A stretch of DNA of 64,000 nt from Actinomyces sp. zg-332. GTDB lineage: Bacteria; Actinomycetota; Actinomycetes; Actinomycetales; Actinomycetaceae. The stretch spans positions 372,001-436,000 of the forward strand of contig NZ_CP064951.1 of assembly GCF_011751945.2 (NCBI RefSeq), given 5' to 3'. Positions 42,999 through 63,712 of the stretch are shown piece after piece. Every line of letters starts with the position of its first letter. The stretch's first letter is position 1. The translations under genes and the position numbers were made by a program. The notes below the pieces were generated by a model. The model made no database searches, had not been told where the DNA came from, and saw only the letters and a list, made by a program, of their open reading frames with translations.

Positions 42999-44444
42999 AT
43001 GTCTCCTTCAAAGAAAGTAAATTCTGGTTTTTCGACTTCTAGCAATGCTGATGATAAGAAGGCTTATAAAAGGAAAAATAAAAAAAGTAAATCTGGTGAG
43101 AAGAAAACGATTTCAAAGCGTAAGTTTAGGAATTTTCTACGTGCTTTTGTTCAGAAATTAACTAACTTTGAAGCCGTATCTCCCAGCTACAACAGTGGTT
43201 TTTTGATTTCTATCCCAACTATTATCCTAGTTAGCATAGGCACTATTTCTGTTATATCAGCTACTTCTGTTCTATCGGTCGGAGCTGGTAGTGGCGTGCT
43301 AAGTGTTTTTATTAAACCGGGAATATTTTTCCTAGCAGCTATGTTTGTCTATTACGTAGCTAAAATGTTTAGTATAGAGTTTTATAAGCAGCTATCTAAA
43401 TACATTGTTTGGCTCTTCGTGATTCTGCAGGTTTTTACTGTCTTTGTAGGAACAGCTATCTCTGGTAACACTAACTGGATTACAGTCTTGGGTTTTACCT
43501 TTCAGCCCTCTGAATTCTTGAAATTTGCTATTATTTTATTTTTAGCTTTGCAATTTAGCGATAGTTCCTTTGAAAGCGTTGAGCTAGAGGAAATACTTCG
43601 TTCTGGCTGGGAAAATACTTTACAGTTTTTTGTTAAAATGTTTATAAACTATTCCCCAGCAATTTTAGGTGGTGCCTTTGTTATGGTTGGTCGTGACATG
43701 GGTACCTTCATGATTATTGCAGTTTTTGTGTTCATCATGATGATTGTTGCAGGTGTTCGTACGAGGTACTTATCGTATATTACTTTGCTGGGGGTTCTCG
43801 GTGCTGTATTTGCTGTTATTACTAGTACATCTAGGCGTACTCGTGTGCTTGCCTTTATTTTTGGAGATGCAACTGTCTCTGAACGAGATTCTCAAAGTTT
43901 ACAAAGTTTATGGGGGCTTGCATCAGGCGGACTTACAGGTTTAGGTGCTGGTGCTAGCCGCGAAAAATGGGGATATTTGCCAGCTGCTAAGACTGACTTT
44001 ATTTATGCTGTTATAGGTGAAGAATTTGGATTACTTGGAACTTTGCTTATCTTAGCCCTATTTATAATGCTTGCTTACGGACTATTTGCTTTGATGTTTT
44101 CTCATAAAGATCCGTATGTGAAGTTAGCTGTTGCTGGTATAGCTAGTTGGATAACTGTTCAAGCAATCGTAAATATTCTAGTTGTGATTGGTTTTGCTCC
44201 TGTTCTAGGGGTACCTTTGCCACTTATTTCTTCAGGTGGTTCTTCTCTTATGAGTGCTATTGCGGCTTTAGGCTTTTGTGTTCGAGCGGCTCAGGAGCAA
44301 GCTGGTTTAGCTAAAAAAGACAGAAAGTTTGTCAAAAAGGGTAAAGCTATACCTGTTTACCAATCTAAGAAAGTAAATAGTGCTAAGCTAAAGAGTGATT
44401 TTAAGCGTCCAAATAAACCTAGAATTATAAGGGATGACAAATAA
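42999..44444 (+). CDS. ftsW: Septal peptidoglycan polymerase FtsW (SEDS family)
   Basis: A 481-residue SEDS protein. A basic Ser/Lys-rich cytoplasmic N-terminus of about 55 residues precedes the ten membrane helices. Characteristic stretches are FQPSEFLKFAIILFLA, QSLQSLWGLASGGLTGLGAGASREKWGYLPAAKTDFIYAVIGEEFG (quoted by its parts QSLWGLASGGL and TDFIYAVIGEE) and GVPLPLISSGGSSL. It polymerises glycan strands with FtsI at the septum. A basic tail of about 40 residues follows the last helix. murG starts on the last base of the stop codon. Confidence 0.93.
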   Translation: MSPSKKVNSGFSTSSNADDKKAYKRKNKKSKSGEKKTISKRKFRNFLRAFVQKLTNFEAVSPSYNSGFLISIPTIILVSIGTISVISATSVLSVGAGSGVLSVFIKPGIFFLAAMFVYYVAKMFSIEFYKQLSKYIVWLFVILQVFTVFVGTAISGNTNWITVLGFTFQPSEFLKFAIILFLALQFSDSSFESVELEEILRSGWENTLQFFVKMFINYSPAILGGAFVMVGRDMGTFMIIAVFVFIMMIVAGVRTRYLSYITLLGVLGAVFAVITSTSRRTRVLAFIFGDATVSERDSQSLQSLWGLASGGLTGLGAGASREKWGYLPAAKTDFIYAVIGEEFGLLGTLLILALFIMLAYGLFALMFSHKDPYVKLAVAGIASWITVQAIVNILVVIGFAPVLGVPLPLISSGGSSLMSAIAALGFCVRAAQEQAGLAKKDRKFVKKGKAIPVYQSKKVNSAKLKSDFKRPNKPRIIRDDK

Positions 44445-45556: not shown

Positions 45557-46944
45557 ATTTTCATTTGATAGGAATAGGTGGAGCAGGAATGAGTGTCATA
45601 GCTCACCTTCTAAATGAGCAAGGACACGTTGTTTCTGGTAGTGATAAGAATGAATCTTTAACTCTGGAAAATTTGCGTGAAAAGGGAGTTAAAGTATTCG
45701 TTGGACATGATGAGACAAATGTTCCTAATGACTGCGTAGTCGTTGTATCTACTGCTATTACTAAGGTTAATCCTGAATATGCTTATGCTAAAGATAAAGG
45801 TTTAGAAATTTGGCATAGATCTCAGGCTTTGGATTTTGTTGCCAGATCTAAGAAAATGATTGCTGTTGCTGGAGCACACGGCAAAACTACTACTTCAGGT
45901 ATGTTTGCTTTTGTATTGAATTCTATGGGGCTAGATCCTTCCTATGCCGTGGGTTCTACTATTAAAGGCTTAGGAAAAGGTGGTTATGCAGGGAAAGGTG
46001 ACTTTTTCGTTGCAGAAGCTGATGAATCAGATAAGTCGTTTTTGAACTATTCACCTCGTTTATCCATCGTCACCAATGTTGAAGCTGATCATTTAGATAA
46101 TTATGCTAATGAACAAGAGTTTCGTGATATTTTTGTTGAGTTTGCTAATAAAATACTTCCAAATGGCGCTTTGGTTGTATGTAGAGATGATGAAGGGGCA
46201 TTAGAACTAGCTCGTACTATGTCTAATAAGCTAAGAGTCATAACCTATGGTAAGTCAACTAGTGTAGTTGAGGGTGAATACGCCAGGGTTAGGATAACTG
46301 AGGAAGAGTTAAATTCTAATGGTGCTAAAGCTGTTTTTGAATTGGAGCATAAAGGTGAAAAATTAAAACAGCATATTGAATTACAAGTTAGTGGTGCACA
46401 TAATATTTTGAACGCTGCAGGTGTTTTTGCTGCTTGTTTTGACTTAGGGCTAGATTTAGAAAAAGTTGCTTTTGGGTTGAAAGGTTTTTCTGGTACTGGT
46501 AGGCGTTTTGAACTGCGTGGAGAGTGTGCGGGCGTTCGTATTTTTGATGACTATGCTCACCATCCTACAGAAGTACTTGCCGCTTTGAAACAAGCGCGTA
46601 TTTATGCTGGAGAAGGTAGAGTAGCTGTAATTTTTCAGCCACATTTGTATTCACGTACAATAAATTTTGCTCAAGATTTCGCTAAAAGTTTATCTTTGGC
46701 TGATTTAGCCATTGTTGTAGATATTTTTGCTGCCAGAGAAGAACCTGTTGAGGGTATTGATTCTTCTATAATCACTAACTATATGGACAGTGAAATAGGA
46801 CATTATATTCCTGACAAACAAGAGGCTGCTTTTTTTGTATCTAATTGGGTTTGTGAAAGTGATATTATTGTTACTGTAGGTGCTGGTGATATTACTTACC
46901 TAGGTGATACTATTATCGAATTTTTGCAGGGTGAACTATTTTGA
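45553..46944 (+). CDS. murC: UDP-N-acetylmuramate:L-alanine ligase
   Basis: A 463-residue Mur ligase adding the first L-Ala. It opens with FHLIGIGGAGMSVIAHLL, carries the ATP motif AGAHGKTTT at 106-114, and has VEADHLDNY, the GTGRRFELRG loop and DDYAHHPTEV, the MurC-specific set. It initiates the cytoplasmic stem-peptide pathway continued by MurD, MurE and MurF of this cluster. The stop TGA overlaps the TTG start of ftsQ. Confidence 0.97.
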   Translation: MNFHLIGIGGAGMSVIAHLLNEQGHVVSGSDKNESLTLENLREKGVKVFVGHDETNVPNDCVVVVSTAITKVNPEYAYAKDKGLEIWHRSQALDFVARSKKMIAVAGAHGKTTTSGMFAFVLNSMGLDPSYAVGSTIKGLGKGGYAGKGDFFVAEADESDKSFLNYSPRLSIVTNVEADHLDNYANEQEFRDIFVEFANKILPNGALVVCRDDEGALELARTMSNKLRVITYGKSTSVVEGEYARVRITEEELNSNGAKAVFELEHKGEKLKQHIELQVSGAHNILNAAGVFAACFDLGLDLEKVAFGLKGFSGTGRRFELRGECAGVRIFDDYAHHPTEVLAALKQARIYAGEGRVAVIFQPHLYSRTINFAQDFAKSLSLADLAIVVDIFAAREEPVEGIDSSIITNYMDSEIGHYIPDKQEAAFFVSNWVCESDIIVTVGAGDITYLGDTIIEFLQGELF

Positions 46945-48572
46945 AACAACCTAAGTTGCCAAAAGATGGACAAAATAATACTCCTAAAGTTACTAGTAGT
47001 AGTTTTAGGAGGAAGAGTACAGATAACGTTTCTGATAATTCTGTGCGCAAAAATTCAGATAGGGTAAATAGTAAAAATAGGTATGTAAGTAATACGTCTA
47101 GAAGTAATGCTGGCAATATAGATTCCACAAATTTAAAAGGTAAATCTACTGAGAGTTTTACTAGTGATAAACCGAGTATAAAAGATAAATTTAGCAAGGT
47201 ATCTAAAAAGTTTTCCTCAAATACGCCGAAAAAAGAACGCGTTAGAGCTGATAAAATATCAAAATCTTCTCGCGAGAAAAATGCTCTTAAAACTAATGTC
47301 TCAAAAGTAAATTCTAGGGAAAATGCTGATAGGTTTTATTCTCGTTTATCTGGCTTTTCATTTAAAACTTTTTATGAAAACTTCACCTACCATCCACATA
47401 TGGAAAATATAGACTCTCTAGGTGAAACTTTTAGTTCAAATACTTCTGATAACACTAAAAGTAAGCGTAGAATCTTTAAAACAAATTCTGATTATAAACG
47501 TGATAATGCTAAAAGGGAATTAAAAGATTTTGGGCGTAGTAAAGTTAAATCTCTCAAATCAGAGTTTTTCCCTGAGATAAATCAAGAGGATAAGAATATT
47601 AAGTTCGATATTCCTATCACGGATACTAAAATTTTAAAAAATTCTTCTGTTAGCGGTTTAGAAGATAGTCATACTATTTTAATAGATAATTCTGAGGATA
47701 CGACAGAAGATAATGCTAAAGCTTCAGTTGAAGAAGTGACGTCTTTTCAAAAATATGTTGAGTATAGGAAAGATAAGATTACGCCTAATTTGTCATTTCC
47801 TAATTCGATAAAGTATATTTCTAAACCTATTAATAACGTTACTCATAGTTTACGTGATCGTTTAGTAGATAATAAGAAAAAGTTACGTATAACTAACCTC
47901 AAGAAATTTAGCTTGTGGGGTTTGGGTGCTTTGAGTATATGTATTTTAGGGTACTTGGTGTATGGCTCTAGTTTATTCTCCCTAGATAAATCTGAGATTG
48001 CACTGCTATCTAAACCAATACACGTACAAGAAAAAGATTTACGAACAGCTTTAAATGACTATGTTGATGCTCCTTTGCCTAGTTTATCTTCTGCTGCTTT
48101 AGAATCTGAAATTGAGCGCAAGTTTGTTTGGGTAAAAAAAGCGAAAGTGTCTAAACAGTGGCCTAATGGTTTAGCTGTCAGTTTAGTGGAACGTGAGGGC
48201 GTGGCTGTGGCAAAGAATGGGAATTCTTTTGTACTGCTTGACCCTACAGGCAGACAGCTAGAAACTTTAGATAAGCCTCAAGAGGGTATCCCGCTGGTTG
48301 ATATTCCTTTGAATAACAAAAAAACTAAAGAGTCTTTAAATGCCGTTTTGAATGTTCTAGGAGCTGTGCCTGCTAAAGAAAGGGCTGTCGTGGTGCAGGC
48401 TAAGGCATCTGATAAGGACAATGTTGAGTTCGAACTACAAGGCGGAATTAAGGTTATTTGGGGATCTAATTCTGATAATAAGTTGAAAGCTAAAGTTTTA
48501 GAAATTTTACGTGGAAAACAAGCTAAAATAATTGATGTTTCAACTCCTTCAAAGCCAGTTACTATTTTGTGA
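46941..48572 (+). CDS. ftsQ: Cell division protein FtsQ with very long basic N-terminal arm
   Basis: A 543-residue protein. The first 320 residues are predicted cytoplasmic, low-complexity and rich in Lys, Ser, Asn, Asp and Arg. One transmembrane segment follows at about 323-345. A POTRA domain (about 347-417, with VWVKKAKVSKQWPNGLAVSLVEREGVA quoted by its part WPNGLAVSLVERE) and an FtsQ C-terminal domain (about 420-543) complete it. Usual FtsQ arms are tens to about 150 residues. It links FtsL/FtsB to the divisome. The start is TTG 46941 overlapping the murC stop (TTGA), and no in-frame ATG lies near it. Confidence 0.88.
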   Translation: MKQPKLPKDGQNNTPKVTSSSFRRKSTDNVSDNSVRKNSDRVNSKNRYVSNTSRSNAGNIDSTNLKGKSTESFTSDKPSIKDKFSKVSKKFSSNTPKKERVRADKISKSSREKNALKTNVSKVNSRENADRFYSRLSGFSFKTFYENFTYHPHMENIDSLGETFSSNTSDNTKSKRRIFKTNSDYKRDNAKRELKDFGRSKVKSLKSEFFPEINQEDKNIKFDIPITDTKILKNSSVSGLEDSHTILIDNSEDTTEDNAKASVEEVTSFQKYVEYRKDKITPNLSFPNSIKYISKPINNVTHSLRDRLVDNKKKLRITNLKKFSLWGLGALSICILGYLVYGSSLFSLDKSEIALLSKPIHVQEKDLRTALNDYVDAPLPSLSSAALESEIERKFVWVKKAKVSKQWPNGLAVSLVEREGVAVAKNGNSFVLLDPTGRQLETLDKPQEGIPLVDIPLNNKKTKESLNAVLNVLGAVPAKERAVVVQAKASDKDNVEFELQGGIKVIWGSNSDNKLKAKVLEILRGKQAKIIDVSTPSKPVTIL

Positions 48573-60847: not shown

Positions 60848-63712
60848 ATGAAGGTAATAAAAGGTAAGAACATTTTAAGGAATATAGTTACTATAGGTAT
60901 AGCAGTTACTTTATTTTCTACTACTGTTGTTAGCGGGTATGCTGAAGAAATAAATACAAATGTATCCGAAGAATCTAATACAAAGGTTCAAAATACACAG
61001 GAAAAACAAGTAGAAAATAAAGATGAGGAAAATGCTGAAAAAGTAAAAGAAAATCCACAGAGGGAAGAATTAGATTTTACAGCTAATTCTCAGTTGAAGT
61101 TGGAAAGCGATAAGATCGAGCAGTACCATAGAATGCACCCTGAATTGGGTAGAGCAATATCTCCTGTTAAAAGTAACTTGAAAGATAACGGCTCTGTTCA
61201 AAGTTTTAGTAACGGTCGAACCACTTTTGCTGTTTATTATTCTCCTAGAACTAATACTGTCACACATATTAATATAAATGGTGGTATTGCTAATTTCTGG
61301 ATTAATAGTGGTTGGGAGAACTCAAGGCTAGGTTATCCGGTTACTCCTGAGGAAAAAATTAGTAATAATCACTGGATTCAGCGTTTTGAAAATGGAACTA
61401 TTTCATATCGTAACGGAGCGTTTGTTACATATAATGGGAATCCTATAGCAAATTATTACTTGCGAAACTATGTAGGTATTGGACATCCTGTGTCTAATGA
61501 AAAATGTGGTTTGAAAGATGGCGGTTGTGTTCAGACTTTCAGTGATGGTGTATTGACTAATGCTGTTTATTACTCTCCTGTAACTAAGGTTGCTACACAC
61601 GTTAATCTAGACAGCTCATTAGCTAAAATTTGGATTAATAGCGGTTGGGAGAACTCAAGGCTAGGCTATCCGATAGCTTCTGAAGAAAAAGTAGATAGAA
61701 ACCATTCAGTTCAGCGTTTTGAAAACGGAACTCTTTCTGTAAAAGGTAACGGCTCTGCTATTGCTTATAATAATCGCCCTATAACTAACTATTATTTGAA
61801 TCACTCCGAACTTATTGGACATCCTGTGTCTAATGAAAAATGTGGTTTGAAAGATGGTGGTTGTGTTCAGACTTTCGCTAAGTACAATAACTTGTATGCT
61901 GTTTACTCATCAAAAAATGGTATTTATCATTTAGATTTGAATCATCCTATTACTAAATATTGGATAAATAAAGGCTGGGAAAACTCTTCTTTAGGTTATC
62001 CAATCTCTGATATTGTTCGAACAGAGATCGGTTTTAAACAATCATTTGAAAAAGGTACACTTTTATATGAGTTTGGAAAGGTATCTGAAAGACTGTCATT
62101 TGAGGGTGTTTTGAAAAACTATATTAGAGAAAACGCTGCTCATATAGGACGCGCTGTAAATAATGTGCGTTGTGGCTTGAAAGATAATGGTTGTGTTCAG
62201 ACTTTCAGTAAAAATAATCAGTCAATAGCTGTTTATGTCAGTTCAGTAACTCCACCTGCATATATTAATTTAGAAACTCCTATTGCAAAGGAATTTATTA
62301 AATCTGGTTGGGAAAACGGAAAATATGGATATCCTGTAAATATAGAAAGAACAATTATTTCCAATAAGAAAATGCAAGAATTCGAGCATTTGATTGCTTT
62401 CTATAATGGAAATGATGTAATAGAAAATCCTAAGTCGAATCCAATAACTAAACATTACTTGCGAAATAGTAGCAGACTTATCTATCCTACAAACAATATT
62501 AAATGTGGTTTGAGTAATAATGGTTGTGTTCAGACTTTTATGTCTAACCAAAATGAAAAAGTTGCAGTATATTCCTATGCAGGAAAAATTGGTGAAATAA
62601 AACTTGATAAGCCTTATACGAAAGTTTGGGCTAAACAAGGTTGGGAAGAATCACCATTAGGATATCCAACTTATGAGTCCAACAATAAGCAGTATTTTGA
62701 AAATGGCTACATTCAAGATGAAAATACTTATATTACGGACAAACAAGCTGCTTTTACTAGGTATTACAATGCTAATAAAGGTATTTATGGTTCAAAAATA
62801 GTTAGTAATTTGCGTTGTGGTTTAAAAAATGGTGGGTGTGTAGCTACATTAGAAAAAAATAATGGAACTCAAACAGCTATATACATAACTCCTAAAAACG
62901 GTATAGTGCCAATTCAGATAGATGGACCAGTCACAAAGCTTTGGATTAAAGCAGGCTGGGAAAACTCTAAACAAGGTTACCCAATTTCTACTGTATATTG
63001 TGATCCTGTTAGATGTGAACAGCAATTTGAAAACGGTAGAATAATAGCTGAGAAAAAAGCTTACCCGAATAACTCATCACGTATGAGTGGTATTGATATT
63101 GCATCATGGCAACGCACACTGAAAATTAAAAATGTGCCAGAAGCTCAATTTATAATTGTTAAGGCTACTGGTGGTACAGGATATGTAAATCCTTTCCATA
63201 AGACTCATGCCGATCAAGTAATACAGCTTGGTAAGAAGATTGGATTTTACCACTTTGCCCATGAAATTGGATATCAAGGAAGTCCAGAAGCAGAAGCTAG
63301 ACACTTTGTAAATACTGTGCGTCCGTACCTTCGCTATGGACCAATGCTTGTTTTGGATAATGAATCTGACAATAGAACAGATGTTGCGTGGAACAAGAAA
63401 TGGTTAGATGAAGTTTATAGATTGACTGGAGTTAAGCCAGTGATTTATATGTCACAAAGTGTCGTAAACGAAGCTAACTGGTCATCTGTTGCTCAAAGCG
63501 ATTATCCTCTATGGGTTGCATATTATCCTAGAAATGCTTCAACTGGCGTTGCTATAGGTAGCACTCCATATTTCCCTATTAAATGGTGGGAAAAAGCTAT
63601 TATGTGGCAGTACACAAGTAATTTGCGTTTACCGGGGTACGGTAGCGATTTAGATGGTAACGTATTTTATGGTGACGCTGGTATCTGGGCATATTATGCA
63701 CTACCAAGGTAA
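60848..63712 (+). CDS. Secreted LGFP-repeat protein with C-terminal GH25 lysozyme domain
   Basis: A 954-residue exported protein. A signal peptide spans about residues 1-32 (cleavage near SGYA-EE), followed by a charged linker to about 90. Roughly twelve LGFP-type half-repeats span about 95-735, alternating GHPVSNEKCGLKDGGCVQTF-like and WENSRLGYP-like units. Five of the six first-type units carry a Cys pair (C-G-L-x3-G-C). The GH25 muramidase domain spans 746-954, starting MSGIDIASWQ (D749) with the acid pair in VLDNE (D837, E839). LGFP repeats bind cell wall in actinobacteria. The protein likely sits on and cleaves peptidoglycan. There is no LPXTG motif or other anchor. Confidence 0.92.
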   Translation: MKVIKGKNILRNIVTIGIAVTLFSTTVVSGYAEEINTNVSEESNTKVQNTQEKQVENKDEENAEKVKENPQREELDFTANSQLKLESDKIEQYHRMHPELGRAISPVKSNLKDNGSVQSFSNGRTTFAVYYSPRTNTVTHININGGIANFWINSGWENSRLGYPVTPEEKISNNHWIQRFENGTISYRNGAFVTYNGNPIANYYLRNYVGIGHPVSNEKCGLKDGGCVQTFSDGVLTNAVYYSPVTKVATHVNLDSSLAKIWINSGWENSRLGYPIASEEKVDRNHSVQRFENGTLSVKGNGSAIAYNNRPITNYYLNHSELIGHPVSNEKCGLKDGGCVQTFAKYNNLYAVYSSKNGIYHLDLNHPITKYWINKGWENSSLGYPISDIVRTEIGFKQSFEKGTLLYEFGKVSERLSFEGVLKNYIRENAAHIGRAVNNVRCGLKDNGCVQTFSKNNQSIAVYVSSVTPPAYINLETPIAKEFIKSGWENGKYGYPVNIERTIISNKKMQEFEHLIAFYNGNDVIENPKSNPITKHYLRNSSRLIYPTNNIKCGLSNNGCVQTFMSNQNEKVAVYSYAGKIGEIKLDKPYTKVWAKQGWEESPLGYPTYESNNKQYFENGYIQDENTYITDKQAAFTRYYNANKGIYGSKIVSNLRCGLKNGGCVATLEKNNGTQTAIYITPKNGIVPIQIDGPVTKLWIKAGWENSKQGYPISTVYCDPVRCEQQFENGRIIAEKKAYPNNSSRMSGIDIASWQRTLKIKNVPEAQFIIVKATGGTGYVNPFHKTHADQVIQLGKKIGFYHFAHEIGYQGSPEAEARHFVNTVRPYLRYGPMLVLDNESDNRTDVAWNKKWLDEVYRLTGVKPVIYMSQSVVNEANWSSVAQSDYPLWVAYYPRNASTGVAIGSTPYFPIKWWEKAIMWQYTSNLRLPGYGSDLDGNVFYGDAGIWAYYALPR
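61478..61875 (+). repeat. Near-identical 63-base duplication inside the LGFP region
   Basis: Bases 61478-61540 and 61813-61875 match at 62 of 63 positions. A second pair of close matches (GGTTGGGAGAACTCAAGG and neighbours) lies near 61310 and 61633. The repeat units are therefore recent copies at the DNA level, not only at protein level. Confidence 0.9.

Follow-up and report, generated by a model that had tools for sequence, protein, structure and literature searches.

FtsQ arms and the ftsQ locus of Actinomyces sp. zg-332

FtsQ is mainly viewed as a hub that acts outside the membrane. According to PMC10036325, its cytoplasmic region comprises 27 residues in Escherichia coli, and the same paper describes the 99-residue cytoplasmic arm of Mycobacterium tuberculosis FtsQ as disordered with a 29-residue helix, rich in Arg and Ala, that binds acidic membrane and the GTPase domain of FtsZ. 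PMC4389566 reports that Thr24 of FtsQ is phosphorylated in M. bovis BCG, and PMC9846249 describes an extended disordered cytoplasmic region in M. ulcerans FtsQ, so a disordered FtsQ arm per se is already in print.

The DNA analysed here (the window) is a stretch of 64,000 nucleotides from Actinomyces sp. zg-332, whose genome (1.54 Mb, 99.4% complete) forms a single contig. It carries a complete division cluster (mraZ, rsmH, ftsL, ftsI, murE, murF, mraY, murD, ftsW, murG, murC, ftsQ, ftsZ, a YfiH-like gene, sepF, yggT and divIVA); FtsQ, FtsW, FtsZ, DivIVA, FtsL, SepF and YggT were compared with protein families, murC was matched across relatives, and the remaining gene names are those we presume from sequence. 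The ftsQ gene sits between murC and ftsZ, the expected place of FtsQ/DivIB. It spans 46941..48572 on the forward strand (the strand of all ftsQ features below) and has 543 codons, with a TTG start and a 4-nt overlap with the murC stop; about 320–327 cytoplasmic residues precede the membrane helix. A preliminary description of this DNA had proposed an FtsQ with a ~320-residue basic cytoplasmic arm and otherwise ordinary domains, and both parts hold: the arm is a 327-residue stretch rich in Lys, Ser and Asn, a membrane helix is present, and POTRA_1 (PF08478; residues 360–418, 48018..48194; 46.7 bits, cut-off 23) and FtsQ_DivIB_C (PF03799; residues 423–525, 48207..48515; 26.6 bits, cut-off 21; the sole copy in the genome) both score above their cut-offs. 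Scores against the NCBIfam equivalogs PRK05529 (102.4 bits, cut-off 353) and PRK10775 (26.9 bits, cut-off 366) show clear similarity but fall short of these cut-offs, which are strict annotation thresholds and do not define an FtsQ. FtsQ chains in the PDB, some of which we take to be from E. coli, match residues 345–523 or parts of that range, and the POTRA and FtsQ domains are what the protein shares with E. coli FtsQ. The single membrane helix ahead of the POTRA domain has its core at residues 328–346 (47922..47978; the best 19-residue segment starts at 328) and a mean hydropathy of 1.74. AlphaFold2 models the membrane, POTRA and C-terminal parts confidently (pLDDT blocks mostly 83–96). The hydropathy of the membrane helix is the lowest in our family table (others 2.06–3.11), and the Phe-Ser-Pro that is common after this helix in relatives is Gly-Ser-Ser here. 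The protein is an ordinary FtsQ of the Actinomycetales divisome with the longest arm of the sampled family.

By the description in PMC10036325, M. tuberculosis FtsQ shares with this protein the single membrane helix, the POTRA-FtsQ part, and a long, mostly disordered cytoplasmic arm with one charged helix of ~28–29 residues (disorder and helix both being predictions in the window); both organisms also have SepF and lack FtsA (no FtsA match was obtained in the window genome). The arms nonetheless differ in length (99 against ~320 residues) and in charge order, since the mycobacterial arm is acidic and then Arg/Ala-rich and the window arm is basic, slightly acidic and again basic, and rich in Lys, Ser and Asn. 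The acidic N-terminal tail of the M. tuberculosis protein has no counterpart here (residues 1–110 have a net charge of +17), and its helix is rich in Arg and Ala where the predicted helix at 182–209 is Lys-rich and Ala-poor. Because the charge order differs and the helix is not Ala-rich, we do not file the window arm as mycobacterial in type; the K-x-P-x-x-P tip described below is also missing from the three mycobacterial arms that were aligned. The FtsQs of other Actinomycetaceae, such as that of Boudabousia marimammalium (L034), share with it the gene position after murC, the N-terminal tip, a variable basic arm and the juxtamembrane helix.

TTG is a weak start codon, murC and ftsQ overlap and an internal start is conceivable, so the start or the frame might be misassigned and the true protein be short-armed. 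We reject this error, which the preliminary description had raised, as scarcely credible. The arm frame is free of stops over 327 codons while the other five frames contain 8–76, and it stayed open in 0 of 20,000 base shuffles. Compared with that of neighbouring genes, synonymous codon use scores 0.086 bits per codon in the ftsQ frame, the remaining frames ranging from −0.04 to −0.26, so that the single open, coding-like frame is that of ftsQ; the first third of the arm alone is neutral (−0.004), yet still the top score among the three forward frames. The 4-nt overlap occurs at 59 of the 69 family loci where murC was found (window included), and the first eight residues fit the tip motif of the family, which supports the TTG start. 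Frame and start are sound.

Arm length and composition among relatives

FtsQ was read in 70 Actinomycetaceae loci drawn from 189 matching genomes of 200 searched (the 30 best-scoring plus 40 picked to spread over genera), a set in which the window is the only species of its genus. Length was counted without G010 (whose membrane helix has no start ahead of it), G082 and G106, which have no usable start near murC. The arms of the 66 other members have a median length of 128.5 residues (quartiles 92–166; top three 208, 214 and 243), and that of the window, at 327, is the longest of the 67 measured; where the start lies near murC, the other arms range from 26 to 243 residues. From the other families of the order 65 loci were read, 63 of which give a median of 108; one arm among them (L224, G265) reaches 314 residues. 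Outside the order, 50 of 60 genomes matched; of the 29 best-scoring loci taken from them, 28 give a median of only 31.5, seven of the starts being uncertain. Long arms thus characterise the order, with the window as its extreme. The arm had been called far longer than usual for the family; this holds by comparison with the family median, yet in family and order alike a long arm is nothing rare, which weakens the case for a special long-armed protein. The window arm is an extreme of length and not a new kind, long basic arms being normal in Actinomycetales.

The 327 residues of the arm include 49 Ser, 47 Lys, 33 Asn, 24 Thr, 24 Asp, 21 Arg and 17 Glu (68 Lys plus Arg, 41 Asp plus Glu), giving a net charge of +27. 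Arms are net positive in 65 of the 67 family members. Composition tracks genome GC, with Lys and Asn here and Arg, Ala and Pro in high-GC relatives (GC 34.9% in the window, 41–76% in the family loci first fetched).

Conserved ends and a variable middle

The N-terminal tip of the window protein (residues 1–8, MKQPKLPK; 46941..46964) matches a family motif, [KR]-x-P-x-x-P-[KR]. Counted strictly, as one or two residues followed by [KR]-x-P-x-x-P at loci whose start lies at most 6 nt from the murC stop, the tip is found in 53 of the 64 family FtsQs, that of the window among them, and is missing in 11; in 200 shuffles of residues 2–60 the mean count was 0.66 and the maximum 4. By genus the figure is 26 of 31. 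These genomes are related, so such conservation counts do not represent independent events. Six of the 70 loci were dropped from this count for their start position, one of which (G076) bears the tip, and among three further uncounted family loci G016 has it and G036 and G001 do not. In the rest of the order, 30 of 63 FtsQs have a looser form of the tip (shuffle mean 4.2, maximum 11). It clusters in certain families (7 of 7 in f7, 5 of 5 in f8, 6 of 7 in f11, 3 of 3 in f14) and is absent from others (0 of 5 in f3, 0 of 4 in f15, 0 of 4 in f19), and the arms of several families are long but have no tip; outside the order it was seen in 2 of 28 FtsQs.

We considered whether the tip has a cause at the DNA level, such as the murC overlap or ribosome binding, and ruled this out: each of the four Pro codons turns up at both Pro positions, and this free choice indicates that the constraint acts on the protein. 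The Lys or Arg at position 2 is partly dictated by the overlap with the murC stop, but the two prolines are not. The tip pattern is found at six DNA sites in the window genome, in a search confined to unshifted tips with an ARR codon at position 2; ftsQ alone among them opens a long frame, the other five giving 2, 8, 17, 18 and 87 codons. No description of such an FtsQ tip was found in the open-licence PMC literature searched. Judged from these sequences, a conserved tip on a tether of free length, common to much of the order, appears to be both new and of more interest than the length of any one arm. Two families without the tip have near-membrane motifs of their own: [RK]PKV[VIL][DN]F in f3 (L200, L206, L214, L219 and L229) and L[AED]FP[ET]P in f5 (L211, L218, L227, L228 and L238), and clade-specific motifs may thus be general in FtsQ arms.

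The other end of the arm is a conserved basic juxtamembrane helix (residues 303–322; 47847..47906), recognised by alignment to 68 relatives and predicted as helical in both structure runs. Four columns are nearly fixed (Leu in 55, Arg in 58, Glu in 61 and Arg in 55 of the 68), and the window is in register with L304, D306, R307, L308, D310 (in place of Glu) and R316. In short-armed relatives outside the family a similar basic stretch makes up nearly the whole arm. AlphaFold2 extends a helix over residues 298–342, into the membrane. The amphipathicity of the base helix is not notable, 67% of shuffles being as high.

Between these ends lies a variable linker rich in Lys, Ser and Asn (residues 9–297; 46965..47831), mostly predicted to be disordered and with no sequence relatives found. 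When the arm alone was searched against 59 genomes at E values up to 1, the only two matches were the window's own genome and one at E 0.71, so the arm as a whole is not conserved; a Pfam search of the arm gave nothing above cut-off and one weak match (E 0.026) below its cut-off. The disorder proposed in the preliminary description is upheld by prediction: a FoldIndex-negative run at residues 1–139 is the longest among 47 non-overlapping ORFs of the window, and AlphaFold2 confidence is low across most of the arm. Structures were predicted for the full protein with an alignment of 19 sequences, which placed helices at 125–137, 141–147, 182–209 and 256–279, and for the arm alone from its single sequence, which placed them at 182–209, 259–279 and 301–326. 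In a charged disordered arm, such predicted helices may form no more than transiently.

The charged helix predicted at residues 182–209 (47484..47567) appears in both runs with moderate confidence (mean pLDDT blocks 72–82 with the alignment and 75–87 without). It has 6 Lys, 3 Arg and 1 Ala among its 28 residues, its amphipathicity is not notable (16% of shuffles are as high), and it may resemble the M. tuberculosis FtsQ helix. Near the end of the linker, an aromatic island at residues 268–281 (YVEYRK; 47742..47783) resembles YSEYREWRKK, YQEWRRK and YESWRRE in three relatives (G080, G058 and G018). The pattern YxE[WY]R occurs in 4 of 64 arms against a shuffle mean of 0.21, but it was drawn after the cases had been seen and is kept as a lead only.

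Possible uses of the arm

Conserved ends around a free middle usually point to a tethered short linear motif, and we propose such a plan of tip, tether and base for this arm, perhaps reaching the Z-ring, with a probability that we put at roughly 0.45. The tip (residues 1–8) would be a short linear motif that most family members share, and the base (residues ~303–322) a basic helix that runs on into the membrane helix and lies on the inner face of the membrane; the tether between them, free in sequence and length and longest in this organism, would let the tip keep a division protein of the cytoplasm close to the membrane, perhaps assisted by the charged helix at 182–209. The likeliest partner zone would be the Z-ring, either FtsZ or SepF on it. 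Scaled as an unfolded chain, an arm of 327 residues would span ~15 nm on average and one of 126 residues ~8.5 nm. If the Z-ring layer lies 13–16 nm from the membrane, it would be within reach of the window arm. The window genome has SepF and no FtsA match, and residues 1–330 of its FtsZ carry a net charge of −18, which together make a contact like that of M. tuberculosis possible. The binding of FtsZ by the M. tuberculosis FtsQ arm (PMC10036325) is a precedent for contact with the Z-ring, and with the conservation of both arm ends the binding of FtsZ and acidic lipid described there favours a cytoplasmic binding role, from which we infer membrane contact, a partner and a tethering use of the arm. 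A conserved cytoplasmic tip in one order thus points to a contact on the inside of the membrane. Tentatively, and as a wider claim that we would hold more doubtful than probable, Actinomycetales FtsQs may carry the previously undescribed [KR]-x-P-x-x-P-[KR] motif on a tether whose length is free (26–327 residues of arm in the family sample); the motif would anchor FtsQ to a cytoplasmic division protein and thereby recruit or restrain the FtsQ-FtsB-FtsL complex from inside.

A strong rival, and one that is quite possible, is neutral drift in length, in which tip and base matter and the extra 100–200 residues are an unselected expansion in an AT-rich genome. The lack of sequence relatives for the arm among the 59 genomes (itself and the E 0.71 match apart), the 26 to 243 residue spread of the other family arms with a start near murC and the tracking of genome GC by composition would all be expected from it; the arm is, however, the longest disordered stretch among the 47 local ORFs, so there is no general expansion nearby, and the predicted helix and the aromatic island stand out in its middle. 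The preliminary description had suggested binding to DNA, binding to FtsZ or SepF, or phosphorylation. We think it unlikely that the arm is chiefly a phosphorylation platform, on which its 73 Ser and Thr residues (49 and 24) would be targets of PknB-like kinases that tune divisome assembly. Four strong Ser/Thr kinase genes are present in the genome, and PMC4389566 reports a phosphorylated Thr24 in the FtsQ of M. bovis BCG, but the middle that holds most of these residues is not conserved. Disordered arms in low-GC organisms are, moreover, commonly rich in Ser and Thr. Contact with DNA or the nucleoid through the basic arm is very unlikely: a net charge of +27 is in its favour, but per residue this is 0.08, under the family median of 0.11, residues 201–300 are net negative, and no DNA-binding family was matched in the Pfam search of the protein. 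The suggested cytoplasmic binding thus survives as the favoured use, and DNA binding found no specific support.

A trend of basic N-termini common to the neighbouring FtsW and FtsL, as had also been suggested, is not borne out, both arms being ordinary: that of FtsW, at 64 residues, falls within the 30–71 seen at 13 other loci (15 were read, two of them discounted for misread starts), and that of FtsL has ~38 residues. At its other end FtsW has a Lys-rich tail of ~45 residues past the last membrane segment (44306–44441). Farther along the window, at 60848–63712, lies a gene for a protein of 954 residues that combines LGFP repeats with a lysozyme-type glycosyl hydrolase 25 domain.
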